A stretch of 64,000 bases of DNA from Knoellia remsis. GTDB taxonomy: Bacteria; Actinomycetota; Actinomycetes; Actinomycetales; Dermatophilaceae. Each line of letters opens with the position of its first letter. Positions within the stretch are counted from its first letter, which is position 1. The notes beneath the pieces were generated by a model. That model saw nothing but the letters and a program-made list of their open reading frames with translations. It was not told where the DNA came from and ran no database searches. The DNA lies in the NCBI RefSeq assembly GCF_003002895.1, contig NZ_PVTI01000002.1, positions 124,001 to 188,000 on the forward strand, in the 5' to 3' direction. The translations under genes and the position numbers were made by a program. Positions 4,647 to 32,787 of this stretch are shown here, in pieces.

Positions 4647-4653
4647 CGCCATC

Positions 4654-6078: not shown

Positions 6079-6112
6079 CACAGAACCTGCTTCCTTGCTC
6101 GATGGATGGGTG

Positions 6113-7155: not shown

Positions 7156-7161
7156 GAATAA

Positions 7162-8808: not shown

Positions 8809-8823
8809 GACAGCCCCCTTGTC

Positions 8824-9522: not shown

Positions 9523-9569
9523 ACCCGACAGGTGCGCCAGTCCTGCCTTCGCGCTCAGACAGCGCCGTG

Positions 9570-11515: not shown

Positions 11516-11522
11516 GGCCGCC

Positions 11523-14768: not shown

Positions 14769-15021
14769 CTGCTCTGGCCTCCTCCCGGCATCGACCGCGC
14801 CCAGCACAGGGCGGCGGTGCACCAACTAGGTGCGCCAGGAGAACCAGCAGGTATGTCGAGACGGTCAGCGAACCAGTCGGTTCGATAGGTCGGCCGTCAG
14901 GAGAACTCGTGATGCGCCTGACGTAGGACATACCGGCCTACCGGCAATTTCGTGCTCCGTGGGGTTCGGTGCCGGGATGCTCCCGATATCCCGCTCGTGA
15001 TGCTCAGATCGGGAGCGGCGT
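14769..15021. promoter_or_regulatory. Non-coding gap ahead of the transfer operon
   Basis: This 253-base gap separates the AraC gene from ardC, both on the minus strand. It is the likely place for the promoter of the roughly 14 kb transfer operon. Short dyads such as CCGGCCTACCGGC around 14934-14946 are present, but no convincing -35/-10 pair was found. Confidence 0.35.
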
Positions 15022-15936: not shown

Positions 15937-15957
15937 CCCCGTGACGCGATGAGGTCG

Positions 15958-16467
15958 CTAAGGCCGGCCGAGGCGGCGTGCGATCGCCTCCTCTGCTCGG
16001 TTCAGTTCGGTTCCGAGTCGCCGGACGGTCTCCGGTGACAGGTCGTCTCGGTTCGCGCACATGGCGATTTCCTCGTTCACGTCCCGGACGAACTCGATCA
16101 CAATGCGCTGTGCTGTTGAGAGCTGGGCACCCTTGCCCTCCGGCTCCGCGCGTCGCGTCGCGTCGCAGAACCCACTCGACGCGATGTTGCCCCGGACGCT
16201 GTGGTGTCTTCTTGTCCGCGGTCGGTGATCGTGTACACGACCCTGCGGCCCGGCCATGTCCCGGTGATGAGCCCATCGTCTTCGATGTTCGTCAGCCCCA
16301 GGCGCGAGATGCCAGACCGGAGTGGACGGTCTGATCCACCACAAGTGGGGACGTGATCGACCAGGAGACGCACGCGCGTGCTTCTCGGATACGTAAGTTC
16401 GGAGTGCCGTCCACGAGCGTGCTGGCCCACACGAGCCAGAGACTTTGTGGCCGTCGATCGTGGACAT
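15958..16467 (-). pseudogene. Frameshifted winged-helix regulator remnant
   Basis: Two overlapping minus-strand frames together resemble one MarR/ArsR-like regulator. One frame (about 16200-16390) carries the wing-helix pattern ISRLGLTNIEDDGLITGTW then RRVVYTITDRGQE. The other (about 15958-16150) carries a helical C-terminus, LSTAQRIVIEFVRDVNEEIA and RRLGTELNRAEEAIARRL. The frames switch near three tandem copies of the pentamer GCGTC at about 16150-16164, a likely slippage site. No single frame covers both halves, so the gene looks broken. The recognition helix is not well conserved, hence the moderate confidence. Confidence 0.4.
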
Positions 16468-16626
16468 CTTCGTTGGTGGGCATCGCTACGCATTGCATGC
16501 CCTCAGCACTGACCAGTGCCGAACTAGAAGGGCTGCGGCCTCGGGTACGGAGCACTCTCGGTTGCGACCAGCCGGGAGCGCTCCTAGCCACAAGCACGAG
16601 AGCGTTGTGGTGGACATGATCGGGAA
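16468..16626. other. Non-coding gap, nothing recognised
   Basis: Short, lower-GC stretch between the regulator remnant and the MFS gene. No promoter, repeat or RNA gene was recognised. Confidence 0.3.
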
Positions 16627-18162
16627 TCAATTGGAGTCCATAGACAGATGATCCTCGTCCTCGTTCACACGCGGGCCGCGAGAAGGGACGAGGAGCAAGA
16701 GAGCCACGACGACGGACATCAGAAGACATACCGAGCCGACGCCGATCTGCGTTAGGTGCCAAGAGGAAGTGAATGCGTCGACTTCGGCGCCGTGGGCGCT
16801 GGTGGCCGTAGTGTCGAGGTTGCCGGCGGCGACATCGGCCGCGTGGCTGGAGTCACCCAGTCGGTCGGCGAGGAACCCTATGAGCGAGGCGCTAAACACA
16901 GCGATCACCAGAGCTTCTGCCGCACCACGGAGCGTGTTGAGGAAGCCAGCGGCGGTCCCGACGAGCCGCGCCGGAGCTAGGGCCATCGCCTGGCCATCAG
17001 TGATACCAAACGAGGCCCCCATGCCGACCCCGATCAGCAGCAGCGGGACCGCGACGAGCGCCGTCGTGTTTTCTGGACCTAGGACTACCAAACTGAAGTT
17101 GCCCGCGACAACGAGCACGAGCGCGGACATGATCAGCAGTCGCGCCGAGATGCCACGATTGACCAACGTGACAGCGAGGGTGGGGGTAACCACCACGGGC
17201 GCTGTCAGCAGCAGCATCGTCAAACCCGCAGCCGCCGGGGTCTGACCTGCAACAGCCTGCAGGTAGGTCGGGAGGAACACCAGCGCGCCGAGGAACCCGA
17301 TTGAGGTCGTCAAGGTCGCGAGACACCAACCCATGAATCCGCGGTCAGAGACGAGTTCGGGCGCGAGCAACGGGGAAGCGCTACGGCGCTGGGCGATAGC
17401 GAACAGAACCAATGCCACCACGCCCACGGCAAATGCCAGCAACGTCATCGGGTGAGCCCAGCCGACCTCCGGCGCTTCAAGGAGAGCAAACATGAAGGCG
17501 CTGAGAGTCACGACGAACAACAGGCTCCCGAGCCAGTCGGTACGGTTGTGAGCGGCGTGAGTTTCTTGAAGCCGCGCGGCTCCGCCCGCGATGAGTGCGC
17601 CAAGTACTGCGAACGTGATGAAGCTGCCGCGCCATCCCGTCAATGCCATCAGAGCACCGATCACCGTCGGCCCTACCGCGATGCCGACCCCGGCCAAGGT
17701 GCCCATGAACGCGAAAGCACGGTTGCGGGCGCCTCCTTCGTAGCTCGATGCCAGCAGCGCTCCGCCCGCAGCCATCACTCCGGCACCACCGATACCGGAC
17801 ACCACCCGTGCGATGTCTACCACGATGACCGATGGCGCCAACGCTGTTGCAAGGAACCCGCCAGAGAACACGACTGAAGCGATGATGAAGATTCGACGCC
17901 GACCCGCGCGGTCCGCGACTGCGCCTGCGATGAGAGTCATTGCAGCAAAGGCCAGGTTATAGCCGGCGACGACCCAATTCAGTGCCGAGCCCGAGGCGGC
18001 GAGTTCCCGACCGATACTCGGTAGTGCGATGGCTGTGCCCGAAATCGACATCGCTACTAGACCGACACCGACCAAGACAACCGGCAGAGTCAGCCGGGAT
18101 GGCGGACGTGGCACGTTCCCGAGTGACACATCCGGGGTAAAACTGGTCGCTTGAGAGTCCAT
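16627..18162 (-). CDS. MFS drug exporter, DHA2-like (14 helices)
   Basis: The start is the ATG at 18162 (GGAAGGAA five bases upstream), giving 511 residues. About 14 hydrophobic helices are visible, with the MFS loop motif AGAVADRAGRRRIF after helix 2 and a motif C-like segment LAGVGIAVGPTVIGAL in helix 5. That set marks proton-driven antiporters of the DHA2 group. It lies divergent from a SoxR gene and behind a SoxR-type promoter, so it probably exports redox-cycling compounds such as phenazines or quinones (inference from regulator type). Its base composition looks less GC-rich than that of the transfer genes, consistent with acquired cargo. Confidence 0.85.
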   Translation of the reverse strand: MDSQATSFTPDVSLGNVPRPPSRLTLPVVLVGVGLVAMSISGTAIALPSIGRELAASGSALNWVVAGYNLAFAAMTLIAGAVADRAGRRRIFIIASVVFSGGFLATALAPSVIVVDIARVVSGIGGAGVMAAGGALLASSYEGGARNRAFAFMGTLAGVGIAVGPTVIGALMALTGWRGSFITFAVLGALIAGGAARLQETHAAHNRTDWLGSLLFVVTLSAFMFALLEAPEVGWAHPMTLLAFAVGVVALVLFAIAQRRSASPLLAPELVSDRGFMGWCLATLTTSIGFLGALVFLPTYLQAVAGQTPAAAGLTMLLLTAPVVVTPTLAVTLVNRGISARLLIMSALVLVVAGNFSLVVLGPENTTALVAVPLLLIGVGMGASFGITDGQAMALAPARLVGTAAGFLNTLRGAAEALVIAVFSASLIGFLADRLGDSSHAADVAAGNLDTTATSAHGAEVDAFTSSWHLTQIGVGSVCLLMSVVVALLLLVPSRGPRVNEDEDHLSMDSN

Positions 18163-18302
18163 TGCTATTCCTTCCAGTCGTGCGCCAGCCGCACATCGAC
18201 ACGACAACGAGGGAGCAGGGCCCGGCCGAGCTTTCGGCTCAAGCGCCGCCGCTGAAGTGCCTTGGGAGGCGTGCGTTCTGCCGCTTCTAGGGGCATACGT
18301 TC

Positions 18303-18333
18303 ACGCTAGAACCTCAACAATGGTTCAGGTCAA
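18303..18333 (-). promoter_or_regulatory. SoxR-type promoter of the MFS exporter
   Basis: On the minus strand TTGACC (18328-18333) and TAGCGT (18303-18308) are separated by 19 bases, the long spacer typical of MerR-family promoters. The spacer holds the dyad CCTGAACCATTGTTGAGG, close to the SoxR box consensus. It lies about 140 bases upstream of the MFS start. Confidence 0.75.
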
Positions 18334-18504
18334 GTGCGGCGCTGCTCGCCAACGGATGCGACTCCGGCTGACTGAGGAGCCATCTGGCGTGAAGGTCGTG
18401 AGACTGGGTGTTGCCCCAACCGTGAGACCACACCTTGTCCACTGTGAGGTCGCGTTCCCCGCTGAGTCTGGCCTGACGCGATGGTTGGCTGGGCAGCCCG
18501 TTGC
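18334..18504. other. Spacer between the two divergent SoxR boxes
   Basis: The 171 bases between the two operators hold no convincing gene; short open frames on both strands lack ribosome-binding sites and overlap the operators. Confidence 0.4.
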
Positions 18505-18535
18505 TTGACCTGAACCATGGTTGAGGTTTTAAAAT
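18505..18535 (+). promoter_or_regulatory. SoxR-type promoter of soxR
   Basis: TTGACC (18505-18510) and TAAAAT (18530-18535) are separated by exactly 19 bases. The spacer holds the dyad CCTGAACCATGGTTGAGG, which differs by one base from the box in front of the MFS gene. It faces the soxR start at 18677, which suggests autoregulation. Confidence 0.78.
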
Positions 18536-18676
18536 GTGGGCGTGCGGGTGTCGCTCCGGCATCAGGCAGCGGAAATGAGTGCGTTGGGCTTGCTTCGCGA
18601 AGCTGGCGTTCCGGAGGTGTCGAGGTGGTCGCCGAAGCGACTGGCACCATCGACCATGAAAAGGTGCAGAGCGACT

Positions 18677-19135
18677 ATGAGACGTCCGAACTGGCAGCAG
18701 ACTGAACTTTCAGTCGGGGAAGTCTCGGCGCGCTCCGGCGTCGCCGTGTCGGCACTACACTTCTATGAGCGCCAGGGTCTCATTACGAGTGCGCGCACAT
18801 CTGGCAACCAGCGTCGCTACCGGCGAGATGCGCTTCGCCGCGTCGCGCTGATCCAGATAGCGCAGCAGGTCGGTATTCCCTTAGCAACGCTTCGCGGCCA
18901 GCTGGAGACCCTGCCGCAAGATCGAGCACCCAGCCGTCAGGATTGGGAGCGACTCACAGCGGAATGGCGGGTTGAGCTAGACCAGCGGATCAGGCGTCTC
19001 GAACAACTCCGGGACAAGTTCACAGACTGTGTGGGATGTGGGTGCCTGTCTATCGACAGGTGCATGCTCGCCAATCGGAATGACCAGCTCGGAGAGGCGG
19101 GAACCGGGCCGCGTCGGCTCCTCGACGGCGAATGA
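18677..19135 (+). CDS. soxR: SoxR redox-sensing MerR-family regulator
   Basis: The 152-residue protein has a MerR DNA-binding domain (LSVGEVSARSGVAVSALHFY, ERQGLI, QRRYRRDALRRV), a dimerisation helix, and the iron-sulfur cluster segment DCVGCGCLSIDRC near residues 116-128 that defines SoxR. The ATG at 18677 is chosen because it places the HTH ten residues from the N-terminus as in known SoxR proteins; two upstream in-frame ATGs have no good ribosome-binding site. It should activate the two divergent 19-base-spacer promoters upstream in response to redox-cycling compounds. Confidence 0.88.
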   Translation: MRRPNWQQTELSVGEVSARSGVAVSALHFYERQGLITSARTSGNQRRYRRDALRRVALIQIAQQVGIPLATLRGQLETLPQDRAPSRQDWERLTAEWRVELDQRIRRLEQLRDKFTDCVGCGCLSIDRCMLANRNDQLGEAGTGPRRLLDGE

Positions 19136-19583
19136 CTCCGGCGCCAAGCGTCCATGCCGTCCTGACCTCAGGCCGCTTGCTGTGAGACCGGAGGGCGGGT
19201 GGCTGCCAGCACTAATCCGAGTGAGCGTCGGCGGTCCGCCGATCGCATCCGTTACGCGAGGGCCACACGAGACTCCATACGGGGCCGAGACGCCAGGAGA
19301 ACAGTGCGCGCCGTTTGACAGCCGACTTGGCGCACTGTCGGGTCTTCGCGTAGGGGAACTGCGCTAGGTCGACGATCCCTGGCCAGCGTTCCGTCTTGGA
19401 GTGCTGTCGCCGTTCAGGTCATCGCCCAGGTGTCCCGAGGGGTGACGCACGAGTTTCTGACAGGCTCTCCGTGATGCCTCTATTCGAGGTACCACGCCTC
19501 TTGCAGGTCGAGGTCAACCTAGGTTGACGGCGCGTTCGCGCGGTCGTCGTCCGCTCACCTGTCCACCGAAGGGCGGTGGCGTG
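19136..19583. other. Non-coding region upstream of the relaxase, candidate oriT
   Basis: No gene is supported in this 448-base region. It contains an inverted repeat with nine-base arms (19301-19309 and 19330-19338, ACAGTGCGC and its complement) and a perfect 16-base palindrome at 19513-19528. Origins of transfer of MobF systems usually lie next to the relaxase gene and contain such repeats. The nick site cannot be identified from sequence alone. Confidence 0.35.
19513..19528. promoter_or_regulatory. Perfect 16-base palindrome ahead of the relaxase gene
   Basis: GTCAACCTAGGTTGAC is fully symmetric and lies about 55 bases upstream of the relaxase start. It fits an operator for a dimeric regulator or an oriT-associated site; the binding protein is unknown. 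Confidence 0.5.
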
Positions 19584-22500
19584 GTGACGGTCTCGATGCG
19601 CGTGATGAGCGCGGGTGATGGCTACAAGTACCTGCTGCGCACGATCGCGGCCGCGGACGGCGACCGTGAGCTGTCCACGCCTTTGACGAGGTACTACGTG
19701 GAGGCGGGAACACCACCGGGCCAGTGGCTCGGGTCCGGTGTCGCCGCGCTCGGCAAGGGTCAGCTCGTCGTGGGGGATCGAGTGTCGGAGGCTCAGCTCC
19801 AGCTTGTGATGGGCATGGGTCGTGACCCGATCACCGGCAATCCCCTCGGGCATGCGTTCCCCGCCTACAAGTCGGTGCCGGAGCGGATCGAGGCCCGGAT
19901 CGCCGACCTCGACCCGGACCTGAGTCCCGGCGCGAAAGGTGAGGCGGTCGCGCAGATCGAGGGCGAGGAGACCGAGCGCGGCAGGCGCCGTGCTGTGGCG
20001 GGGTTCGACTTCACCTTCTCGGTCCCGAAGTCGGCCTCGGTGTTGTGGGCGGTCGCCGATGCCGGCACGCAGGCGCTCATTTGGGAGGCGCATCATCGGG
20101 CGGTTGCGGAGGTGGTTGCGTTCATGGAGCGCGAGGTTGCAGCCACCCGCTCGGGTGCAACCGCCGGTGACGGTGCTGTTGCGCAGGTCGATGTGACCGG
20201 CCTGGTGACGACGGCGTTCGATCACTTCGACTCCCGCGCCGGCGACCCCCACCTGCATACCCACGTCGTCATCAGCAACAAGGTGCAGACCGCGTTCGAC
20301 GGCAAGTGGCGGTCCTTGGATGGTCGGCCGATGCACGCCGCCGTGGTCGCGCTCTCGGAGCTGCACGAGGCGGTGTTCGCCGACCAGATGACCCGCACGT
20401 TCGGCGTCGAGTGGGAAGCAAGGGACATGGGCCGGGACCGGAACCCGGCGTGGGCGATCAGCACCGTGCCGGAGGAGCTGGTCCAGGAGTTCTCCACCCG
20501 CGCAAGGCACATCGACGCCGAGACCGATCGGCTCATCACCGACTACGTGAGCAAGCACGGGCGGCGACCGTCCCCGGCCACGATCGTGAAGCTCCGCGCG
20601 CAAGCCACTCTGTCCACGCGGCCTGAGAAGGAGGTGCGGTCCCTGGCCGACCTGACCGCCGAGTGGCGTACCCGCGCCACCGGCGTGCTCGGCCACGACG
20701 CCACCGGCTGGGCACGCACGATCACCGACAACGACAAGCCATTGCTGCTGCGTGCCGATGACGTCCCCTTGGACGCGATCGCCGAACTCGGCCAGACCGT
20801 GGTCGAGGTGGTGGGTGAGAAACGGTCCAACTGGCGGCGATGGAACCTCATGGCCGAGGCGTCCCGGCAGACGATGGGCTGGCGCTTCGTCACCATGCAC
20901 GACCGCGAAGCCGTCGTGGGGATGATTGCCGACGCCGCCGAATCCGTATCGCTGCGATTGACGCCGCCCGACCTTGCCACCAGCCCGGCCGCGTTCCGGC
21001 GGGTGGACGGCACCAGCGTGTTCCGGCCCAAGCACTCGACCGTGTTCTCCTCCGAGCTGCTCCTGGCCGCCGAAGACCGACTGCTCGACCGCTCCCGCAC
21101 CACGACCGGGCCGACCGTGCCGCTGGCGACGGTCGAGAAGATCGCCGCTCGTCCCGATGCCGAGGGGCGGATGCTCGGCGAGGATCAGGCCGACGCACTC
21201 ATGAAGATCGCGGTCTCCGGCCGTGTCCTCGATGTGCTGGTCGGACCGGCCGGGGCGGGGAAGACGACGGCGATGTCCGCACTGCGTCGGGCATGGGAGA
21301 AGGAAAACGGCGCCGGGTCCGTGGTCGGGCTCGCACCGTCCGCGGTGGCCGCGCAGGTCCTCGCCGACGACCTCGGGATCGCTACGGAGAACACGGCGAA
21401 GTGGTGGCAGAACCACCTCGTTCACGGCGAAGACTTCCGGGCCGGTCAGCTCGTCATCATTGACGAAGCCTCCCTCGCCGGAACCCTCTCGCTGGACCGG
21501 ATCACGCATCTGGCCGAACGAGCCGGGGCGAAGGTGCTGCTGGTCGGCGATTACGGCCAGCTCCAGTCCGTGGACGCAGGCGGTGCGTTCGGGCTCCTCG
21601 TCGGTGACCGGGACGATGCTCCCGAGCTGGTCGACGTGCACCGGTTCACCCATGAGTGGGAGAAGACCGCCTCCCTCGCGCTGCGGCACGGTCGCACGCA
21701 GGTGATCGACACCTACCTCGACCACGACCGCATCCGCGATGGCGAGGCCGAGGCGATGAGCGACGCCGCCTACACCGCCTGGCGCGCCGACCGGGAGCGC
21801 GGGTTGGTGTCGGTGCTGGTTGCTGAGACCCGCGATGACGTGAGCGCCCTCAATCAGCGTGCTCGTGCGGACCTGATCCTCGACGGCACGTTGAAGCCCG
21901 GTCGGGAGGTAGAACTCACAGACGGGACCGCTGCCGGCGTGGGGGACACGATCATCACCCGCCGCAACGACCGTCGCCTACGGGCCGGGAAGACGTGGGT
22001 GCACAACGGCGATGCCTGGACCATCACTGGCGTTCGTGACGACGGGTCGGTCACGATCCGCCAGGCTGGACGCCGGTTCGGCGGTTCTATCGTCCTGCCC
22101 ACGGCCTATGTGGTCGAGCATGTTGATCTTGGTTACGCGGTCACGGCGCATAGGGCTCAGGGCGTCACCGTCGATACCGCGCATGTGCTGGTGGAGCCGA
22201 CCACCACGAGGGAGAACTTCTACGTCGCGATGACCCGCGGCAAGCACGCCAACCGCGCCTACGTGATCCTCGACCGGCCCGACGAACACGCCCACCCGTA
22301 TCCGGGCGACAACGCCGACGCCACCGGCCGGTCCGTGCTGTTCGGGGTGCTCCAGCACGTCGGTGCCGAGCTGTCCGCGCACGAGACCATCACCGCCGAG
22401 CAGGATCAGTGGGGGTCGATCGCGCAGCTCGCCGCCGAGTACGAGACCATCGCCGCCGCTGCCCAACGAGACCGCTGGGCCACCCTCATCCGTGCCTCTG

Positions 22501-23126
22501 GCCTGACTGCCGAACAGGCCGACGCCGCGATCGAGTCCGAGGCGTTCGGGGCGCTCACCGCGGAACTGCGTCGCGCAGAGGCCAACCACCACGACCTCGA
22601 CACCTTGTTCCCGCGGCTGGTGGCCGCGCGCGGGTTCACCGATGCCGACGACATCGCCTCCGTCCTGCACTACCGGGTGACCCGCGCCACCGCCCGCCCG
22701 GCCAGCTCGGGCCGCACCCGCAAGGCGCCACGGTTGATCGCCGGACTGGTCCCGTCCGCCGACGGCCCAATGACCCGCGACATGCGCCACGCCCTCCATG
22801 AGCGGCGCGAGCTGATCGAGACCCGCGCAGACGCCGTGCTCGACACCGCTCGCGACGCCGGAGAAGCATGGACGCGGCCACTCAGTGAGCCACCGCGCGA
22901 CCCCCGCAAAGCAGCGGCGTGGCGACGCTACGCCCGCACCATCGCCGCTTACCGCGACCGGTACGGCATCACCGAGGACACGCCCCTTGGTCCAGTTCCG
23001 GAGAACGCTGCGCAGAAGATCGACCGGGCCAGGGCCGAGGCCGCGTTCCGCCAGCTCGCCGGCCAGCCCGAACCACACCGGCAGCACCGCCCACCCGCTC
23101 CGACCCGGCAGGGCCCGAGCCTGTGA
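19584..23126 (+). CDS. traA: MobF-type relaxase-helicase (TraA-like)
   Basis: The protein of about 1,180 residues nicks and unwinds element DNA for conjugation. The N-terminal relaxase domain has tyrosines near the N-terminus (GYKYLL, RYYVEAG) and the three-histidine metal motif DPHLHTHVV near residue 222. The helicase domain starts with VGPAGAGKTT near residue 553, followed by LVIIDEASLAGTLSL, VLLVGDYGQLQSVDAGG and the late motif GYAVTAHRAQGVT, with FYVAMTRGKHANRAYV after it. GTG codons at 19581 and 19584 follow GAAGGG; 19584 gives MTVSM as in related proteins. Both domains appear intact. Confidence 0.9.
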   Translation: MTVSMRVMSAGDGYKYLLRTIAAADGDRELSTPLTRYYVEAGTPPGQWLGSGVAALGKGQLVVGDRVSEAQLQLVMGMGRDPITGNPLGHAFPAYKSVPERIEARIADLDPDLSPGAKGEAVAQIEGEETERGRRRAVAGFDFTFSVPKSASVLWAVADAGTQALIWEAHHRAVAEVVAFMEREVAATRSGATAGDGAVAQVDVTGLVTTAFDHFDSRAGDPHLHTHVVISNKVQTAFDGKWRSLDGRPMHAAVVALSELHEAVFADQMTRTFGVEWEARDMGRDRNPAWAISTVPEELVQEFSTRARHIDAETDRLITDYVSKHGRRPSPATIVKLRAQATLSTRPEKEVRSLADLTAEWRTRATGVLGHDATGWARTITDNDKPLLLRADDVPLDAIAELGQTVVEVVGEKRSNWRRWNLMAEASRQTMGWRFVTMHDREAVVGMIADAAESVSLRLTPPDLATSPAAFRRVDGTSVFRPKHSTVFSSELLLAAEDRLLDRSRTTTGPTVPLATVEKIAARPDAEGRMLGEDQADALMKIAVSGRVLDVLVGPAGAGKTTAMSALRRAWEKENGAGSVVGLAPSAVAAQVLADDLGIATENTAKWWQNHLVHGEDFRAGQLVIIDEASLAGTLSLDRITHLAERAGAKVLLVGDYGQLQSVDAGGAFGLLVGDRDDAPELVDVHRFTHEWEKTASLALRHGRTQVIDTYLDHDRIRDGEAEAMSDAAYTAWRADRERGLVSVLVAETRDDVSALNQRARADLILDGTLKPGREVELTDGTAAGVGDTIITRRNDRRLRAGKTWVHNGDAWTITGVRDDGSVTIRQAGRRFGGSIVLPTAYVVEHVDLGYAVTAHRAQGVTVDTAHVLVEPTTTRENFYVAMTRGKHANRAYVILDRPDEHAHPYPGDNADATGRSVLFGVLQHVGAELSAHETITAEQDQWGSIAQLAAEYETIAAAAQRDRWATLIRASGLTAEQADAAIESEAFGALTAELRRAEANHHDLDTLFPRLVAARGFTDADDIASVLHYRVTRATARPASSGRTRKAPRLIAGLVPSADGPMTRDMRHALHERRELIETRADAVLDTARDAGEAWTRPLSEPPRDPRKAAAWRRYARTIAAYRDRYGITEDTPLGPVPENAAQKIDRARAEAAFRQLAGQPEPHRQHRPPAPTRQGPSL

Positions 23127-23317
23127 GAACAGGCATCCCGATCGTGGCCGAGGCCGGTGCCCTTCCGCATGTCGGCGCCCCGTCGTAGAATTCGGTGCAG
23201 GTAGCGCCATAGTTATGCGCCGTCGACCGGTTCGGCGGCATGGCCCATCGCTTCGGCGACAAGGCCCTCTCAGGGAAGTTCGTTCGCTACAGAACCCCGA
23301 GGAGAGGACTGTCCGCG

Positions 23318-23695
23318 ATGATCCGCCTGATCTGGAACCTCAGCATCCGTACCCGCCTGTTCCTGCGCACCTGGATGCCGACCAACATCCTGCTCGACGC
23401 GATCCGCACCAGGCGCGGGCTGCGGTGGGGCATCCCGGCGATGCTGCTCGCCGTCCCGTACCTGCTGATCGCGAACCTCTGCGTGCAGGCCATCGCCGAG
23501 AACGGCCCCGGTTGGCTGCACCTGGTCGTGTTGTGGGTGATCTGGAACAGCCTGAAAATGCTCTGGATCGGGCCGGTCAGCGTGATCCTGCTCATCGGTG
23601 CGCGCCTGCGCGAGCGTGCCGAGCGCCGTCGTCAGCAGCGTGCCGAGGTCAGTGAGACAACCCAGGAGTCTCGGGCCGACGCGCTGGTGCACTGA
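23318..23695 (+). CDS. Small two-helix membrane protein linked to the relaxase
   Basis: The 125-residue protein starts at the ATG at 23318, with GAGGAGAGGA about 11 bases upstream. A basic amphipathic N-terminus (MIRLIWNLSIRTRLFLRTWM) is followed by two hydrophobic helices (IPAMLLAVPYLLIANLCVQA and LVVLWVIWNSLKMLWIGPVS) and a charged tail with RLRERAERRRQQRAE. Similar proteins follow MobF relaxases in actinobacterial elements and are often mislabelled sulfate permeases; nothing here supports sulfate transport. It may anchor the relaxosome at the membrane (inference). Confidence 0.72.
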   Translation: MIRLIWNLSIRTRLFLRTWMPTNILLDAIRTRRGLRWGIPAMLLAVPYLLIANLCVQAIAENGPGWLHLVVLWVIWNSLKMLWIGPVSVILLIGARLRERAERRRQQRAEVSETTQESRADALVH

Positions 23696-23731
23696 CCCCG
23701 CGGTCAAACTCCACCGCAAGGCTACGTCTCC

Positions 23732-26431
23732 TCAGGGCCGACGCCGCCGGATAGGAGTGAGACCCCTCCGCGACGATAGGAGCGCGACGTCTTTCCTGGT
23801 GTCCGCAGCCCGGAACCCGCTGATGACCGCCTGCTGCGTCTCGGGCGACCAGTAGATCCGCAGGTCCTGCCGGGCCCGTGTGACGGCAGTGTAGAAGATG
23901 TTGTGCGTGATGTCGTCCTCGTTGGCGCTGGTGATGACGACCTTGACCGCGTCGTACTCCAGGCCCTGGGCCTTGTGGATGCCGACCGCATACGCCACCT
24001 GGAATGGGACGGTGGTGGTGTCGGTGTCGTCGTCCTCATCACTGATGTCGATGTCGTAGACCGCGAATCGCACGGTCGAATCGGAGACCCACTGCAAGTC
24101 GGAGTACTCCTCGACGTCGAACTCGGTCACTGGCCGGTCGAGCCGAACGTCGAACTGAATGCTGCCGTCGGAGGCCTGGATGTCGACGATGGTGCCCTTG
24201 AGGTTGTTGTAGATCAGCGGTTTGAACCGGTTGGTGTCCGCGAACAGGACCGGGTCACCGGCCTTGTACGCCGCCGGCCCCCACGGGACGGCGGGCGAGG
24301 TGTTGCTGGCCTGCAAGAACCGGTTGATGTTGTTGATGCCGTACAGGCCGTCGTAGTTCAACGCCAGAATGATGTCGTCGGCAGAGTGGTTGTCGAAGAG
24401 GCTGGCATCCAGGGCGGTCGAGTACCCGTTGCGGGCGATGGCCTCGGTGATGCCCTCGTCGAGGTTGCGGACCTTGGTCCAGAAGTCGATGAGGTCATCA
24501 CTGCTGGTGCGGTACGGCGTAGCCAGCTCGAAGATGGAAGACGGCTCGATGTAGGACCGAACGATGTTGAACCAGTTACCGAATCTGATGGACTCGATCT
24601 GGAAAACGTCCCCGACGAGCACGATGAGTTTGAAGCTGGTGTTCTGCAGGATGTTGAGGAGGTCGGCGTTACTCACCGTCGAGCACTCGTCGATGACGAG
24701 CAGGTCGAAGTCGCCGGTGGGGTTGTGCTTGTGGCTGGCGATCGTCCGGAAGGTGGATTCTGGCGCGCTCACGCGGCGGCGCAGGTTCTCGACTGCGGGG
24801 TGGGTGTTGGCGAGGAACAGCTTCTGATTACCACCGAAGTAGTTGGCGATGTGGTCGACCATGCGGGTCTTCCCTGTCCCGGCAGCCCCGTAGACGAGCG
24901 CCACGCGGGACTGAGCGAACAACCTGATGAGTGCCGCTCGCTTCGCGGTGTCGTCCACGGTGTGTGCCGTCGTCCCAAGCCACTGTTCCACCGCGGCCGT
25001 GTACCCGCTGATGCCGCTGGCCGCGTGTGCCTGGAGTTTGGTGACGATGTCGTGGGTGTCGTCCTCATAGCTCTGGATGAAGACGTGGCCGTTGTCGAGG
25101 ACGAGGTTACGAGCGGGCCGGTGTTTGTAGTACAGCTTGCTGTTGTAGGTGGCGATGAGGGCTGCTACGTCGCCGAGGTCCTCGAGTTCGGCGATCGGCG
25201 TGTACAAGATCCCGCGATCCTCGACATTGCGCTGTACGCGGCGAGCCAACAGCTCGTGGGTGCGGCCAGCGGTATCGAGGCTGTTGATGAGGTCCCAGAA
25301 CCGCGGGTTGTGGGCCCGCGGTGCGGTGCAGAACGGCATGTCGTCGAACGGGATGCACGAGTAGCTGACGTTGAGGTTCGAAAGGCGGGTGTTCGGTTCC
25401 CAGTGGTACTGCGCCTTCAGCCAGTCGTTGCGCATCCGAAGAAGCAGGTAGCGCAGGAGATTGTGGCCGGGCCTCTTCCCGCGGATGATGCTGCGCGCCT
25501 CGTCGATGGCAGGGAAGATCTGCGGACTCCGGGAGGTGGCCGTTCCCCGTGCCTTGACGTCGTTGTACCACTCATCGGAGGCGTCGATGAGGTCCAGCAG
25601 AGTTGAGCCGCCGGTCAAGCCAGCCATGACGAACTTGTACTCGGCAGAGTCCGTCCGCACCTTCGTCGGCCTCCCGACAAGGCTGGCGAAGTGGTCGACC
25701 TCGCACGGCCGGATGGACACTTCCCAGTTGCGGATGAGGGTCACCGGCATCTGCTGCCCAAAGACTTCGATGCTGGCCGCCTGAAGGCCCAGGTTCGCAG
25801 AGTAGTTGTCCGCGATGTCCATGTCGGTGAACCCAATGATGCGGTCGGCCTTGCTCACTCGATTGACGGCCTTGTAGAACGTGACCTCGTAGAATACTCG
25901 GCCGCCGGTGACGAACGGCCGTGTCTTGTGGATGTAGAACCGGTCGTGACGGGCCGAGGTTGCCCTGCCCAGCTTGTCGATCTCTATGGCGATCTTCTCG
26001 TGGTACTCAGCGAGCGCCGGGTCCTGGTCGAGCGGAAAAAGCTCAAGGTTGCCGAGAATCGCGACGCTGGTTTCGTCGTACAGAAGCGTGCGCAGACGTA
26101 GCATGTACTCGTAGTAGCGGAGCATGAGTCGTTCCGAGGTGTCACCGTCGAATGTGTAGTGAGAGACCGACGGCTTCAGCAAGGTGTGGAACCTTGTGAC
26201 GAAGTTCAGTCGACCGTTCGCCTTCACCCAGGAGAGTGCGGCCTCGATCGCGTCGTAGTTGTACTCGACGTCCCCTCTGCCGGTGTGCAAGCGCACGGCG
26301 ACGCCCTCGACCAAATTCCGTAGCTGCCCCAGGACGTTCTGGGATAGGAGGTCACGCTGACTACGCAGCGTGGCGATGTTGGCGCAGATGACTGCGTCGG
26401 CGGCCGTTATGTGTTCGGCAACGTTGGTCAT
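23732..26431 (-). CDS. Large SF1 (RecD/UvrD-like) helicase with unassigned N-terminal domain, putative defence effector
   Basis: The ATG at 26431 is preceded by GGAGG, giving 899 residues. The last 390 residues form an SF1 helicase: VYGAAGTGKTRM near residue 515, FDLLVIDECSTVSN near 575, KLIVLVGDVFQIES, AYAVGIHKAQGLEYDAVKVV, and FYTAVTRARQDLRIYW near 850. The first 500 residues match no domain I recognise and hold a mix of helices and strands with few motifs, so they may sense or bind a target. It lies 325 bases downstream of a PD-(D/E)XK nuclease gene on the same strand. Helicase plus nuclease is the usual composition of phage-defence systems; the specific system is not recognised. Confidence 0.75.
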   Translation of the reverse strand: MTNVAEHITAADAVICANIATLRSQRDLLSQNVLGQLRNLVEGVAVRLHTGRGDVEYNYDAIEAALSWVKANGRLNFVTRFHTLLKPSVSHYTFDGDTSERLMLRYYEYMLRLRTLLYDETSVAILGNLELFPLDQDPALAEYHEKIAIEIDKLGRATSARHDRFYIHKTRPFVTGGRVFYEVTFYKAVNRVSKADRIIGFTDMDIADNYSANLGLQAASIEVFGQQMPVTLIRNWEVSIRPCEVDHFASLVGRPTKVRTDSAEYKFVMAGLTGGSTLLDLIDASDEWYNDVKARGTATSRSPQIFPAIDEARSIIRGKRPGHNLLRYLLLRMRNDWLKAQYHWEPNTRLSNLNVSYSCIPFDDMPFCTAPRAHNPRFWDLINSLDTAGRTHELLARRVQRNVEDRGILYTPIAELEDLGDVAALIATYNSKLYYKHRPARNLVLDNGHVFIQSYEDDTHDIVTKLQAHAASGISGYTAAVEQWLGTTAHTVDDTAKRAALIRLFAQSRVALVYGAAGTGKTRMVDHIANYFGGNQKLFLANTHPAVENLRRRVSAPESTFRTIASHKHNPTGDFDLLVIDECSTVSNADLLNILQNTSFKLIVLVGDVFQIESIRFGNWFNIVRSYIEPSSIFELATPYRTSSDDLIDFWTKVRNLDEGITEAIARNGYSTALDASLFDNHSADDIILALNYDGLYGINNINRFLQASNTSPAVPWGPAAYKAGDPVLFADTNRFKPLIYNNLKGTIVDIQASDGSIQFDVRLDRPVTEFDVEEYSDLQWVSDSTVRFAVYDIDISDEDDDTDTTTVPFQVAYAVGIHKAQGLEYDAVKVVITSANEDDITHNIFYTAVTRARQDLRIYWSPETQQAVISGFRAADTRKDVALLSSRRGLTPIRRRRP

Positions 26432-26756
26432 CTTGAACCTCCAATGAAGCAGCGACGACACAGATTCCCTCGATACCAAGACCAAAGAGATGGGCCGACC
26501 ACGATGCACGGCTCCCGGTGATTGGTAGGCGACTGGTTCTTCTGGCGGATGTCCAATCTGTGCGGAGTGGCAACTTCTGTGCAGGTCAAGCACCACCCCA
26601 CCTCGTCTGATAGCGGCACCGCAGATCTGATGTACTCGCTGCACCAACCTGTCTCCGGCGATGTCTGCAACCGCATTCTGGGTTGGCCGGTTCCTGACCG
26701 GGAGGTGGTGCGCCGGTTAGGCGTTCCGATGAACAGCTTCATGCAACTGGCGCCGT
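26432..26756. other. Non-coding gap between nuclease and helicase genes
   Basis: This 325-base gap has short open frames on both strands, but none has a ribosome-binding site or recognisable protein. It may contain a separate promoter for the helicase gene; no clear -35/-10 pair was found. Confidence 0.4.
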
Positions 26757-28211
26757 CTACTGCTTTGACGCAGAGGTCTTGTTGTCTCGCCTGGCGTCGA
26801 CGAGGACGAGTTTGATCTGGATGCATTTTTTCTTTGCGAGAGTAGCGATCGTGTCCTCGACGCGCTTGATACGCGCGGGCGCGAAGTCCTCGTCGTAGTG
26901 TCCGATGCACAGGTATACGCCATGGCTGATCTGCTCGGTCTTCATGTATTGGGGCAGTTGGGTCGCGGCGCCCTTGAAGAAGCTGCTGCTGCGGATCACT
27001 TTGACTTCGAGAAGGGCGCGATCTTCCCAGCCCTTGGAGAACTTGAAGTCGACAGGGCCGCGGCCGCGGTTGACCTCCTGGCTGATGTCAACCTGTGCGG
27101 CGCGGCAGGCTTCTGTCCACATCGCGCCGGCGATGGCCTGGATGACTTCTTCCTTTTGCGGGTTGCCGGCGGCCCACAGTGCCCGCCACAGATCAGTGCT
27201 CTCGACCGCGTGCTGGAAGCGTGTCGCGAGGAGTTCGACGAACGCCGGGAACTCCCGCTGCTGGGAAGGAACCTCGGCTGAGGTGATGGGCGACGCTTTA
27301 CCCACGGCCTCTCCGGTCTCCCGCCAGAAGACCAGGCCTTTCGGGTCCATCTCGACGTCGTAGGGCAGGTGGGGCATCTGTGCTACCAGTCGCAGGTAGT
27401 CGGCTGCCTTGTCTGGATACTTGCGGGCGAAGCGTCGTGCCAGGACGCGGCGGTCCGCCTGGTTGAGGCCCTGTGCGATCTCGTAGCTGAAGTCCTGTCG
27501 CAGAAGACGAGCTTCGTGGACCTCGGCCCACTTCCAGAACTCGTCCGGGGTCACCGTCGGGATTTCCTTCAAGAACCGCTCGGGTGCGAGCAGTGCTCCA
27601 CCGTCACCGAAGGGCGACTTAGGTAGTTCGATCTTGGCGTCGGGTAGCCACCTGGATCGCTGCCGGTCCCAGCCGGGGTGCTTGACGGTCACTAGCTCCA
27701 TCGGGATGCCGAGCTTCTTGGACACCTTCTGGGTGTATCGGATGAACCGGTGCTTGAGGATGTTGCAGAGGATGTCGCTGATCCGATCCAGACCGATCCC
27801 GCTGGCGAAGAGGTTGAAGCCCGCGATGGACGCGAGGTCTTCAATATGCCCGTACTGGCGTGCGAGGTCGAGGACGCCTGCCATCTCGCGGGCGAACTTG
27901 GTGCCCGTCCCGGACCCGTGCGGGGCTCCCATGCTCAGGCCGAGGCAGAACTCGTTGGGTTCGGGGAACCTCAGCAGTTCGAGCGCCTTCTTGTATGCGA
28001 GCGAGCTCTGGTTGCCCTTGGATTGCTCGATGAGACGTGCTGCGGCGTCGAAGAAGTCCGTGACTTCCTGCTTGGCACCCGCCCACAGGGGCTTGTTGTC
28101 GTCGAACACCAGGAACGGGTCGACGTACAGCGGCGTGTCTTGGTCAAGCAGGGGATTGAACCACGGACTCTTCTTGCCGTGGGTGACACCGAAGGCGCTG
28201 CTGAACCTCAT
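26757..28211 (-). CDS. Putative PD-(D/E)XK nuclease of the defence-like block
   Basis: The ATG at 28211 has GGGGAG five bases upstream, giving 484 residues. The N-terminus MRFSSAFGVTHGKKSPWFNP and a long helical middle have no match I know. Near residues 383-400 the chain has VDFKFSKGWEDRALLEVKV, with D then ExK on adjacent strands, the catalytic pattern of PD-(D/E)XK nucleases. A strand and a helix with Q in the following TQLPQYMKTEQ also fit, because Q/Y residues commonly follow the ExK motif. The C-terminal tail is basic. Its place between an XRE-ImmA regulator and a helicase suggests a defence role; the substrate is unknown. Confidence 0.68.
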   Translation of the reverse strand: MRFSSAFGVTHGKKSPWFNPLLDQDTPLYVDPFLVFDDNKPLWAGAKQEVTDFFDAAARLIEQSKGNQSSLAYKKALELLRFPEPNEFCLGLSMGAPHGSGTGTKFAREMAGVLDLARQYGHIEDLASIAGFNLFASGIGLDRISDILCNILKHRFIRYTQKVSKKLGIPMELVTVKHPGWDRQRSRWLPDAKIELPKSPFGDGGALLAPERFLKEIPTVTPDEFWKWAEVHEARLLRQDFSYEIAQGLNQADRRVLARRFARKYPDKAADYLRLVAQMPHLPYDVEMDPKGLVFWRETGEAVGKASPITSAEVPSQQREFPAFVELLATRFQHAVESTDLWRALWAAGNPQKEEVIQAIAGAMWTEACRAAQVDISQEVNRGRGPVDFKFSKGWEDRALLEVKVIRSSSFFKGAATQLPQYMKTEQISHGVYLCIGHYDEDFAPARIKRVEDTIATLAKKKCIQIKLVLVDARRDNKTSASKQ

Positions 28212-28395
28212 CTCATGCTCCCCACACCGTGGACCTTTGCTTCGCTGGTCGGCTGCGCGATGGTAGTGCGCTGCCGCATACCGTGCCCGTCCCGCGCGCA
28301 CACGTCCGGCATCGGGTCCTCCATCAGGGCTGAACCCGCGTGCTCAGTTGGAGCGGGAAGGAGTCGCATTGGTTCTCCCGGGGATCGAGGTGGGC

Positions 28396-29535
28396 TCAGG
28401 GTGTGGGGTCGACGGCTAGGCGCAGCCGGGGCTTGGTCTCGCTGCCGGCCGCGACGATGTCGTCGATCTGCTCGACGGTGAAGCGGCTCGCTCTTGCCAG
28501 GTCATCGGTTGTGGTTCCTGCTTGGTTGAGCAGATCGACGGCAGCGCCGAGCAGATACGGGGATTCAGGGGGACCGAGCGGACCGGGTTCGGGGTAGCCC
28601 TGGCTGCGTAGGTGCTGGTTCGCGCGGCGGTAGCTGTGTTCGCCCCATAGTCCGATGGCGTGGCATCGGTAGGCGAGAGCAGCCAGACTGATGCCCCACT
28701 TGGTCTTCGCTTGCAGTAGCGCATCCCAGTCGACCTTGCGTGGCAGGTCCGGCTCTAGCTCTGGTGTCGGTGCTAGGAACTCCGCAGCGAACTGATGTGC
28801 GTGAGTCTCGATGATCTTGGAGCCGGGCTCGACGTCTTGGTGCATCACGAGGTGGCCGAGTTCGTGGGCGGCGTCGAAACGGCTTCGTGCTCGGTCGTCC
28901 TTGAGCGGAGAGAGCAGCACCAGGGGTCGGTGGCCGGCTTCGGTGGAGAACGCGTCAACGCGGGGGTCGATCTCCGGTGGTAGGCGCAGGGCGATGATGC
29001 CGTGAGCCTCAAGGAGACGAACGACGTGTGGGACTGGCCCCGGTTCCACGCCGAGTCGGGAACGGGTGTCGGCGGCGATGGAGGCGATCAGGGTCGGGGA
29101 GGGCTCGTCGTCGACTGGCTCGATGATGTCGGTGATCTGGGGGAGGTCGACGTACTGCTCAATGACCTCGATGACGGCCAATGCGATCTCGGCGAAGGCC
29201 AGGGCCTGGTCGCGGGAGATGGCCGGTGTGGCTCGCAGTGACCGGAAATGAGCGTCGCCCGTGGAGACCGCTGTCAAAGGGCGGCCTTGCCGGAAGAACT
29301 CGATCGGCACGCCCAGAGCCAACGCCAGTTCTGCTGCGACGGTATTCGTGGGCCGGCCCCCGCGCTCGTACTGGGTGATAGCGGCTGCTGTCACGCTGGT
29401 CTGCGCTGCCAGAGCGGTCCGCTGCATCCTGCGTAGGCGCCGCGCAACCGACAGGCGCTTGCCATCGAAGTCGACCAAGGCTCCGCTCGCGCGGCGACGA
29501 CGTGCCCTTTGACGTGACTCGGACTCGAACGTCAC
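28396..29535 (-). CDS. XRE helix-turn-helix plus ImmA/IrrE metallopeptidase protein
   Basis: The 379-residue protein starts at a GTG (29535) that overlaps the upstream stop by four bases. A basic N-terminus is followed by an XRE-type HTH (ALAAQTSVTAAAITQYERGG, then LALALGVPIEFF) at about residues 40-85. The ImmA/IrrE zinc peptidase has its active helix FDAAHELGHLVMHQDVEPGS near residues 220-240 and a downstream AAEFLAP glutamate element. Proteins of this design act as cleavable or cleaving regulators of mobile elements and as antitoxins in XRE-ImmA systems. Coupling to the preceding unknown gene points to a two-gene unit, and it may also control the nuclease and helicase genes downstream. Confidence 0.85.
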   Translation of the reverse strand: MTFESESRQRARRRRASGALVDFDGKRLSVARRLRRMQRTALAAQTSVTAAAITQYERGGRPTNTVAAELALALGVPIEFFRQGRPLTAVSTGDAHFRSLRATPAISRDQALAFAEIALAVIEVIEQYVDLPQITDIIEPVDDEPSPTLIASIAADTRSRLGVEPGPVPHVVRLLEAHGIIALRLPPEIDPRVDAFSTEAGHRPLVLLSPLKDDRARSRFDAAHELGHLVMHQDVEPGSKIIETHAHQFAAEFLAPTPELEPDLPRKVDWDALLQAKTKWGISLAALAYRCHAIGLWGEHSYRRANQHLRSQGYPEPGPLGPPESPYLLGAAVDLLNQAGTTTDDLARASRFTVEQIDDIVAAGSETKPRLRLAVDPTP

Positions 29536-30281
29536 AGTCTGTTGCCTCCTTCCTGCCGGCGCGGCTTGAGCGTCAGAGAGGGCACCGGGGCGGGCTTATC
29601 GCCGAAGGTCGATCCGTCGTCGGAACCGGGTCCTTCACCACTGGTCGAGCTGTCTTGGGCAGGTGTTTCGTCCCACCAGACGGGCGTCACCGCGATCCAG
29701 CGCTGAGCGCTCGCTGTGGGCAGTCCCAACCACCCCGCAGTCAGTCCCGTCCTCAGCTCCGCACCCCACACCAGGAACACCTCACGACAGTGAGTGACCG
29801 CTTCAGAAGCGTTCGGCAACGGAAGCTCGAACAGCGGCTCAGCCTGCGGGTCTCGCGACGGCGGGTCGTACGCGGCGTGGTTGCGTAGCGCTGCGGCCTG
29901 TCTGCCCTCGGAGTCGGACCAATCGAAGTCCGCCTCGAAACTCGGGTGACGCCCCGACCCGAAGGGTGCCTTCACCAAGCGCACGTCAGCTCGGGGAGTG
30001 TGCAGCACCGTCGAGCCGAACTCCTTGCTGGCAACCACACCCGAGGCTCGGAGCGCGGCATTGTCCGGCACCTCGGCGAGCAACCTGTTGGCCAGGTTCC
30101 GCGATGAGAGCACGCTCAAGGTGAAGGCGTCGTCGTGCGCCTCCACCGGTTCGTGGCGCTCTCGGTTGATCCGCCACACCTCGGCGGCCGCAGTCTGAAC
30201 GAAGTCGATCAACCCCGCCTCGGCGAAGCTGGTACGGAGCGAGTCCAGGTGGACTTGCCCATGTGGGTCCCATGACGTCAT
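29532..30281 (-). CDS. Unknown protein coupled to the XRE-ImmA protein
   Basis: The start is ATG 30281 (MTSWDPHGQVHLD); a longer open frame to 30515 has no support. The 249-residue soluble protein begins with a helical region (LRTSFAEAGLIDFVQTAAAE) and continues with strands and loops (EVWRINRERHEP, FDWSDSEGRQAAALRNHAAY, REVFLVWGAELRTGLTAGWL). It contains no P-loop, zinc cluster or membrane helix. The stop overlaps the GTG of the XRE-ImmA gene. That arrangement is seen in toxin-antitoxin pairs with COG2856-type partners, so it may be a toxin or the sensor for the metalloprotease. This is inference; the family is not recognised. Confidence 0.6.
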   Translation of the reverse strand: MTSWDPHGQVHLDSLRTSFAEAGLIDFVQTAAAEVWRINRERHEPVEAHDDAFTLSVLSSRNLANRLLAEVPDNAALRASGVVASKEFGSTVLHTPRADVRLVKAPFGSGRHPSFEADFDWSDSEGRQAAALRNHAAYDPPSRDPQAEPLFELPLPNASEAVTHCREVFLVWGAELRTGLTAGWLGLPTASAQRWIAVTPVWWDETPAQDSSTSGEGPGSDDGSTFGDKPAPVPSLTLKPRRQEGGNRL

Positions 30282-30467
30282 GACACCAGTTAAGCAGGAC
30301 CGCCCGTCAATCGTCGATGCGACACGCTGATGAGCAAGACCGTGGAACATGTGTAGGAAAATTAAGCAGACACGCGTGTTGCTGCTTGAGTCCTCTCCCG
30401 CTTGCTGGCACGCTGGTGCCAGCGGCGGATGTCGTACCCGCCCCCTTCCGAGAGATGAGGTCCCAGC

Positions 30468-30680
30468 ATGGCCAAGAAGCCTGCTAATGCCGGCAAGTCG
30501 TGGACAGCCGCCCATGACGCTCAGCTTCGCCGTGAGGTTGCGCAGAACACCCCGACCAGAGTCCTGGGCCTACACCTTGGCCGGACCGAAGACGCCGTGC
30601 GCAGCCGGGCTGGCGAGCTGGGTGTCTCGCTGAAGCCGACCAACCAGAGTCCCTACGGCACCCGCGGCAAGAAGCGCTAG
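30468..30680 (+). CDS. Small Myb/SANT-like DNA-binding protein
   Basis: The 70-residue basic protein reads MAKKPANAGKSWTAAHDAQL at the start, followed by RREVAQNTPTRVLGLHLGRT and EDAVRSRAGELGVSLKPTNQ. The W-T-x-x-H-D-x-x-L...A-x-xLGRTxxAVRSRAxxL pattern is that of a single Myb/SANT-like three-helix unit with the recognition helix TEDAVRSRA. Such small proteins are widespread, often on or near mobile elements. GAGATGAGG lies about six bases before the ATG. It lies about 360 bases from the element end and may act there; its target is unknown. Confidence 0.72.
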   Translation: MAKKPANAGKSWTAAHDAQLRREVAQNTPTRVLGLHLGRTEDAVRSRAGELGVSLKPTNQSPYGTRGKKR

Positions 30681-31013
30681 GTAGCGGCACGGCCGACCTG
30701 TGAGCGCGAGCGTCGTTGGCTACGGAGTCTCGTAGAGCGGCGGCGTCGGTGCGGAGCAGTTGACGACCACCCAGGCCGGAGGTCGTCGTCCGATCCGCGC
30801 GGCATCGGAGACTTGTGCCATGCGCCGAGCACAAGAACACCTGCCGGCCGCAGTGCGGGCGCACGGCCATGTCGGTGTGCAGGACACGTGCTCCTGGTCG
30901 CTTGGCGGACGGGGAGACAGGGTTGGTGGGAGGTGTCACGATTCGCCGATCAGGCTGTTGCGGTCCGCGGCTCCAGCAGGGGCCGTCTGAGCGCAGCTCG
31001 CGGTAGAATTCCT
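30681..31013. other. Element-terminal non-coding region
   Basis: About 330 bases between the last ICE gene and the junction hold no supported gene. A small hairpin CTACG-GAGTCT-CGTAG occurs at about 30720-30735. A TAGAAT (31004-31009) near the right end could serve as a -10 box firing into the comM remnant, but no matching -35 is evident. Confidence 0.4.
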
Positions 31014-31052
31014 GTACACACACCGAGGTGTACTTTCCATTCCTCGACGAGG
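31014..31052. other. Right ICE-chromosome junction (attR)
   Basis: A short palindrome GTACAC-N8-GTGTAC (31014-31033) abuts the point where comM sequence resumes with TTCCTCGACGAGG (31040-31052). That is the codon string for the conserved Walker B motif FLDEA. Left of it the sequence no longer reads as ComM. The true crossover and any duplicated core can only be fixed by comparison with the left end or an empty site. Confidence 0.65.
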
Positions 31053-31657
31053 CCGGGGAGTTCAAACAGAGCGTCCTGCAGCAGCTCCGCCAGCCGCTCG
31101 AGTCGGGCGTCGCGATGATCACCCGGGCCCGTCAGCACCTGCAGCTGCCGGCCCGCTTCCAGCTCGTGCTCGCGACCAACCCCTGTCCGTGCGGCGGCGC
31201 GTGGCGCAAGGGCTCCGACTGCTCGTGCAGCTCGCTCGCCCTCCGTCGCTACCAGAGCAAGCTGCACGGACCCCTCATCGACCGGGTCGACATCCAGGTC
31301 ATCGTGTCTCCGGTGTCGCGTGCGGCCTTCGGTGACGCGCGTGGCGAGAGCAGCGCCCAGGTCCTCGAGCGCGTGCTCGCGGCCCGGGGCGCCCAGCGGG
31401 AACGATGGGCCGAGCACGGCTGGCGGACGAACGCCGAGGTTCCCGGCCATGTGTTGCGGCGTCAGCCGTGGCGCCTCCCGAGCCGGGTCACCGGCGAGAT
31501 CGACCGAGCGCACGACGAGGGGCGGCTCACGCTGCGCGGGTACGACCGCACCCTCCGGCTCGCGTGGTCGGCAGCCGACCTGCGAGGTCACACCACGCCG
31601 ACCGTGGACGACGTCGGGTTCGCGTTCACGATGCGCTCGGGAGGAGCGGCGGCATGA
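31028..31657 (+). pseudogene. comM: comM (yifB) 3' remnant, magnesium-chelatase-like ATPase truncated by the ICE
   Basis: The frame starts FLDEAGEFKQSVLQQLRQPL and continues through ATNPCPCGG, with the zinc-like Cys residues, and the C-terminal helical domain RLAWSAADLRGHTTPTVDDV. That is the second half of ComM/YifB, which is normally about 500 residues. The Walker A half is missing because the ICE is inserted exactly at Walker B. A GTG at 31028 contributed by the element could give a 209-residue product without a working ATPase. ComM promotes branch migration during natural transformation in other bacteria, so competence may be impaired while the element is integrated. The stop overlaps the dprA start. 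Confidence 0.85.
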
Positions 31658-32787
31658 CGCTGTCAGTCATCAACGCAGGCCGTGGCGCTGCCTCTGCGTC
31701 GGACGAGGAGCGGTGGGCGCGCCTCGCCTGGAGTCGCCTCGCCGAGCCCCAGACCGAAGAGGTGACGGCGTGGCTGCGCAGGCACGGTCCTGTTGAGGCG
31801 TTGGCGAGGCTGCGGGCCGGGTCGCTGGACCCCACGGGGCGCTACGACCAACGGCTCGAGTCGCTCGACATCGACAGCGCACGTCGGTCGCTGGACCGGC
31901 TCGAGGTGCGAGTGGTCATCCCCGGGGACGACGACTGGCCCGAGGGGGTGGAGCAGCTGGCCAACCCACCGATCTGCCTGTATGTCCGCGGCCGGGGCGG
32001 CCTCGGGCTGGTCGAAGGCGGCGTGGCCGTCGTCGGGTCACGGGCCGCCACCCCCTACGGCCTGACCATCGCGACCGAGCTGGGCGAAGGACTGGCCGCG
32101 CGGGGGATCGGCGTGGTGTCCGGGGCTGCGTTCGGGATCGATGCTGCCGCGCACCGTGGCGCGCTCGCGGCCGGCGGGCCGACCGTTTCGGTGCTGGCGC
32201 GAGGGCTGGACCGGGCCTACCCCGCCGCCCATGACGGGTTGCTCCGTGACATCGCCGAGCACGGGGCCGTCGTGAGTGAGCTGCCGCTCGGCTGGGCGCC
32301 CTTCCGGCATCGGTTCCTCGCCCGCAACCGGCTCATCGCGGCGATGACGGCCGGGACGGTCGTCGTCGAGGCGGGTCTGCGCTCCGGCTCGCTCAACACG
32401 GCACGGACCGCTGCGGCGCTCGGTCGGCACGTCGCCGCCGTCCCCGGGCCGGTGACGTCGGTGCAGTCGGCCGGCTGCCACGAGCTGATCCGCGAGACCG
32501 GGGCGAGCCTCGTCACCGACACCGCCGAGGTGGTGGACCTCGTCGGCCGGCTGAGCTTCGACGCCGCCGCACCGGCCCGTGCACCCTCGAGCGCGGAGGC
32601 CGAGCTCGACCCGGTGGCCCATGCCGTCTGGTCGGCGATACCGCTGCGCCGAGGCGCGGACCTCGCCGCGTTGCAACGACTCACCGCGGTCGACACCCCC
32701 ACGCTGTTGTCCGTGCTGGGACGGCTCGGCGCAGTCGGCCTCGTGCGCCGCGACCAGGACCGGTGGCGCAAGGTGCTCCCGGACTGA
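31654..32787 (+). CDS. dprA: DNA processing protein DprA
   Basis: The 377-residue protein has a helical N-terminal domain, the Rossmann fold with VAVVGSRAATPYGLTIATEL near residue 123, and the elements SGAAFGIDAAAHRGAL, RNRLIAAMTAGTVVVEAGLR and SGSLNTARTAAALGRHVAAV. A C-terminal winged helix follows (DTPTLLSVLGRLGAVGLVRR). DprA loads RecA on single-stranded DNA entering the cell during transformation. The ATG overlaps the comM remnant stop by four bases, with GGGAGGAG upstream, so it was translationally coupled to comM; its expression may now depend on promoters within or at the element end. Confidence 0.95.
   Translation: MTLSVINAGRGAASASDEERWARLAWSRLAEPQTEEVTAWLRRHGPVEALARLRAGSLDPTGRYDQRLESLDIDSARRSLDRLEVRVVIPGDDDWPEGVEQLANPPICLYVRGRGGLGLVEGGVAVVGSRAATPYGLTIATELGEGLAARGIGVVSGAAFGIDAAAHRGALAAGGPTVSVLARGLDRAYPAAHDGLLRDIAEHGAVVSELPLGWAPFRHRFLARNRLIAAMTAGTVVVEAGLRSGSLNTARTAAALGRHVAAVPGPVTSVQSAGCHELIRETGASLVTDTAEVVDLVGRLSFDAAAPARAPSSAEAELDPVAHAVWSAIPLRRGADLAALQRLTAVDTPTLLSVLGRLGAVGLVRRDQDRWRKVLPD

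Follow-up and report, generated by a model that had tools for sequence, protein, structure and literature searches.

Evidence for an ICE with a large serine recombinase in the Walker B codons of comM

Insertion of elements by large serine recombinases (LSRs) into comM and the targeting of its Walker B motif are both already known as classes. According to the passages of Durrant et al. (2022; PMC10083194) on which we draw, 12.4% of predicted site-specific LSRs target Mg-chelatase genes and competence genes are enriched; the elements described there likewise integrate by LSR into a gene of the comM/YifB family. Those same passages name neither Walker B nor the crossover codon, whereas here the codon, the crossover dinucleotide and the ICE cargo are resolved. 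The motif itself is the target of two other systems: in Tn6022 and Tsy, TnsF recognises 10 bp of the Walker B region of comM, and Walker B has been suggested to act as a conserved anchor (Mol Cell 2023; PMC10293859). Tn6022/AbaR and Tsy share with the locus described here the gene, the motif and a possible loss of transformation (PMC10293859), but they rely on Tn7-like or tyrosine-recombinase machinery with TnsF, and the enzyme here is an unrelated one, a serine recombinase of actinobacterial ICEs.

Among actinobacterial ICEs, RUSTI and BreLI (PMC5526665, PMC6579920) likewise carry T4SS-type single-stranded transfer genes. RUSTI, however, has a XerD-like tyrosine recombinase and a tRNA-Leu site, and the site of BreLI is the 3' end of a ribonucleotide reductase gene, unlike the LSR and comM site found here. 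We considered both as possible published members of the present element group and rejected them. What is added here is the exact codon and crossover, a third type of enzyme acting on Walker B, and a set of end-promoter and leader features; the exact position of the insertion seems to be new, as does a junction feature that appears to turn the integrase on and off. The first-pass annotation had set this locus apart from the AbaR islands of Acinetobacter. The element is indeed of a different type, but the contrast is narrower than was suggested, because LSR targeting of Mg-chelatase/comM genes has been published and Tn6022 and Tsy also use Walker B.

We analysed a stretch of 64,000 nucleotides, called the window here, which corresponds to bases 124001-188000 of a 246-kb contig in the 3.57-Mb draft genome of Knoellia remsis (negative coordinates lie to its left). 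Our conclusion is that a 36,058-bp LSR-carrying ICE is very probably integrated in the Walker B codons of comM, with crossover on the dinucleotide GA. As a reading of sequence, this rests on both junctions, the restored frame, the LSR beside attL, the conjugation genes and the recurrence of the arrangement elsewhere. The features are as follows.

-5018 (G000:C2:118982; L004:3982), outside the window: attL core
L004 about 4000-4015, just inside attL: left arm AATGGAAAGTGCACCT
-4963 to -3308: LSR of 551 aa, first gene inside the left end, same direction as comM
1..31039, no strand assigned: part of the ICE within the window; about 5 kb more, including the LSR and a VirD4-type coupling protein, lies to the left
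381..1868, minus strand: VirB4/TraC-type ATPase (NCBIfam NF045971 1e-17, TraC 2e-11)
12685..13659, minus strand: Prim-Pol primase/polymerase (PF09250)
19524..23126, plus strand: MobF/TrwC relaxase-helicase (PF08751 6e-91; NF041492 above its cut-off)
28396..30515, minus strand: defence pair at the right end, RmrA (28396-29535, PADLOC 4e-146) and RmrT-like (29532-30515, PADLOC RmrT 2e-29)
31004..31009, plus strand: -10-like box TAGAAT, pointing out of the element
31026..31041, plus strand: right attP arm AGGTGTACTTTCCATT, inverted relative to the left arm
31028..31657, plus strand: comM 3' fragment, 209 codons from an element-supplied GTG, with neither Walker A nor the ChlI domain
31040..31053, plus strand: attR core TTCCTCGACGAGGC, an exact 14-bp repeat with a single occurrence in the window
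31654..32787, plus strand: dprA (TIGR00732, 212 bits), whose ATG overlaps the comM stop (ATGA) and which has its own SD GGGAGGAG upstream

The comM frame picks up again at the codons TTC CTC GAC GAG (FLDEA) at 31040 and stays open to the stop at 31657. Pfam assigns Mg_chelatase (positions 111-204) and Mg_chelatase_C to this 3' piece; the missing 5' part, with the ChlI domain and the Walker A half, lies 36 kb upstream (G000:C2:118058-119008), outside the window. The three domains of the ComM/YifB family, ChlI, Mg_chelatase and Mg_chelatase_C, are divided between the two pieces, and when the flanks are joined they fall into one in-frame ComM of 513 codons (513 aa). Along its whole length, this reconstructed protein shares 73-80% identity with the product of intact comM in 8/8 other genomes of the genus. 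No unoccupied site from the same strain or species, and no circular form of the element, was seen. A search of the full genome with the 3' piece returned only the piece itself, and other ChlI or Mg_chelatase matches are weak, partial and in other frames, none of them a second comM. With no second complete copy found in this search, the reading of a split comM stands.

The first-pass annotation had read the locus as a full actinobacterial ICE inserted at the Walker B codons of comM, beside dprA, with the frame resuming at FLDEA, the ATPase split and a 209-residue frame opened by a GTG from the element; it had also looked to the left end for a core and a junction in the 5' part of comM. All of this was borne out, the left junction lying about 5 kb outside the window at the same 14-bp core. 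The GTG at 31028, which comes from the element arm, does open a 209-codon frame, without a good ribosome-binding site, and an element-supplied GTG is in frame in all 15 elements with both ends. We rejected it as a real start, since it lacks an SD and transcription is predicted to begin about 12 nt upstream of it; its being in frame may only reflect fixed arm spacing.

An assembly chimera, or a decayed comM pseudogene beside unrelated neighbours, could in principle give a similar picture, and the draft state of the genome, in 62 contigs, speaks for this. Both junctions, however, fall within the one contig, the same junction occurs in 15-17 independent assemblies, and both comM pieces remain open and keep the conservation of the family. 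We regard either explanation as scarcely credible.

The ends of the element locate the exchange precisely. The 14-bp core is present at both of them, and the arm sequence GTGTACTTTCCA has a single occurrence in the whole genome. Across the 15 elements for which both ends are available, attL is host-like before GA and element-like after it, and attR is element-like before GA (for example CCTTGCT) and continues with host GAG or GAA. Because host and element sequence change over at GA in these 15 end pairs, we infer that exchange takes place on this dinucleotide, here 31049-31050, with which the Walker B Glu codon GAG begins. The surrounding stretch, GVLFLDEA, ranks 1st in DNA conservation among 505 eight-codon comM windows, as judged against 17 intact comM gene loci in which two genes are represented twice. 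The crossover thus falls in the most conserved stretch of comM, implying that the same target is available in distant hosts. These junctions also bear on whether a Tn7-like transposon of the Tn6022/AbaR type, or Tsy, was delivered to Walker B by a TnsF selector. Targeting of the same 10-bp region is known for both (PMC10293859), but the end of the element carries an LSR instead, and the junctions consist of a recombination core, inverted attP arms and a GA crossover that is fixed in 15 elements, which makes such a transposon very improbable here.

The gene content is that of an ICE. The LSR starts 41 bp past the left core, with the ribosome-binding site AAGGAGG, and its Resolvase, Recombinase and Zn_ribbon (zinc ribbon) domains all score above the Pfam cut-offs (3/3). 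The VirD4-type coupling protein has T4SS-DNA_transf/TraG-D_C domains, and other genes encode an SCO6881-like membrane protein, a cell-wall hydrolase, ParB and an ArdC-like protein. An integrase with defined attL and attR is therefore combined with a relaxase, a coupling protein and a VirB4 ATPase; on this content, assignment as an ICE is well supported, and self-transfer is predicted.

The ICE also carries cargo. A module at 15022-19135 comprises an AraC-type regulator, an MFS transporter and a MerR-type regulator, and at 23732-26647 lies a 971-aa helicase-domain protein that resembles the PADLOC candidate PDC-S53 over nearly its full length (1285 bits). The right-end block (26657-31053), made up of a 514-aa PDC-M36A-like protein, RmrA and RmrT, is 93-97% identical to elements of two other genera (G093, G070), against only about 77% for the G093 backbone, suggesting that the defence cargo at one end was exchanged recently. 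A short 70-aa ORF (30468-30680, plus strand), located between these genes and attR and without a Pfam match, may encode a small regulator close to the right end.

The same site is occupied elsewhere too. Among 84,980 species genomes, a single scan yielded 25 relatives of the LSR, 16 of them directly downstream of a comM 5' fragment ending at the Walker B codons (FLDE), with the comM 3' piece elsewhere in the genome in each case. A class-wide sample added one further case, L126, whose LSR is 66% identical and sits behind a comM cut at the same site. The other nine have no comM fragment at the LSR: five are in genomes with intact comM, one (L023, G189) is from a genome whose comM is split and bears the right end of the element, and the remainder are on short contigs or have a comM state outside the comparison. 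The relatives in genomes with intact comM imply that the LSR group is not found exclusively at the Walker B site. Hosts whose ComM proteins are only 44-54% identical have LSRs that are up to 86% identical, which argues that the element moves horizontally between lineages, with an inferred spread across families.

Several other arrangements of comM were seen. In the class-wide sample, a 47%-identical LSR (L128, G270) adjoins a comM 3' piece on the opposite strand; a more distant LSR of this kind may target the same gene with its ends arranged oppositely. Two Walker B-site elements, L113 (G070) and L120 (G005), have kept the right end but lack the LSR end and are thus likely immobilised. A second comM insertion site, at codon ~82-88, is occupied in five genomes of the family (L109/G140, L110/G096, G094, G103 and G005), and its LSRs differ, being serine recombinases of 489 aa in G140 and 470 aa in G096. 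At this second site G096 also carries a terminase-like gene, named from sequence by eye, and phage-type elements may thus use it.

That relative, at codon ~86 and with a different LSR, lends some weight to the idea that the element in our window is itself a prophage or phage-derived, as does the fact that LSRs are common phage integrases. The presence of a MobF relaxase, VirD4 and VirB4 argues otherwise, and no relative of the LSR was found among 50,697 records of a phage collection (nor in a plasmid collection). A phage origin is therefore highly improbable, and we retain the ICE.

The right end of the element has a further conserved feature. In 18/18 right ends the arm GGTGTACTTTCC is preceded, at a distance of 20-27 bp, by a TANNNT box, compared with 0-1/18 in other 8-bp bins. 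The sequence upstream of the arm is otherwise unalike (median 27% identity), and there is no clear -35 element. Judged from the sequence, an outward promoter at this end would drive the LSR only in the circle, where it is predicted to face and transcribe the LSR gene, whereas in the integrated element it would face the comM 3' piece and dprA instead.

In the LSR leader, CCTCC precedes AAGGAGG. RNA folding predictions, made on related elements whose arms double as integrase binding sites and from an inferred transcript start, give a median probability of the SD being unpaired of 0.005 over 15 elements in attL, with host sequence upstream, and of 0.35 in attP, with the element's own right end upstream; exposure is higher in attP in 15/15 elements. 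The SD is predicted to be partly exposed in attP because a hairpin of 16-21 bp takes up the anti-SD bases. Shuffled right ends gave a median of 0.008, and scrambling the sequence before the SD in attL gave a mean of 0.35. The gain in exposure is small in G186, G193 and G201, and attL is not silent in G192, G194 and G195. In several elements the comM frame stops within the hairpin loop, which could couple translation of comM and the LSR and weaken repression.

These predictions suggest, tentatively and as a possibility rather than a probability, that the attachment site also controls the integrase, as a switch that acts through both RNA and promoter. While the element is circular, transcription from the right-end promoter would run through attP, the long hairpin would sequester the anti-SD and the LSR would be translatable. 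Once integrated, the LSR would be without the right-end promoter, and RNA reading through from comM would pair CCTCC with AAGGAGG, silencing it. A literature search on attP control of integrase translation returned nothing matching.

The consequences for ComM follow from the position of the break. With Walker A on one polypeptide and Walker B on another, we infer that ComM lacks activity for as long as the element stays integrated; excision would be expected to restore it, as the joined flanks predict. The genome has comEC and dprA. One possibility is that comM is subject to a regulated, reversible switch of the active-lysogeny type, with excision timed to competence. The perfect restoration of comM on joining the flanks and the presence of these two genes would fit such a switch, but nothing points to timed excision, LSRs normally depend on a directionality factor to excise and none was identified here, and the relatives in G070 and G005 are likely immobilised. 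We consider regulated switching unlikely, and favour an integrated ICE that disrupts comM.

Micrococcus luteus, an actinobacterium, is naturally transformable; the M. luteus paper searched does not mention comM, and we found nothing that establishes a function for ComM in Actinobacteria. Because no such role is established, we offer lower transformation through comM insertion as a hypothesis; the altered dprA expression that the first-pass annotation also proposed is likewise conjectural. In Acinetobacter, inactivation of comM reduces transformation by one to two orders of magnitude and does not abolish it (PMC11472951).

Overall, the Walker B codons of comM are a point of convergence for three unrelated recombination systems, Tn7-like elements, Tsy and the LSR group, and a catalytic motif thereby serves mobile DNA as an address that is hard for hosts to alter. 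The exact attB/attP pairs, with their known crossover, are useful for site-specific integration tools in high-GC Gram-positives. The attP switch, if true, would provide a simple account of how the integrase is made in the circle and kept silent in the chromosome.
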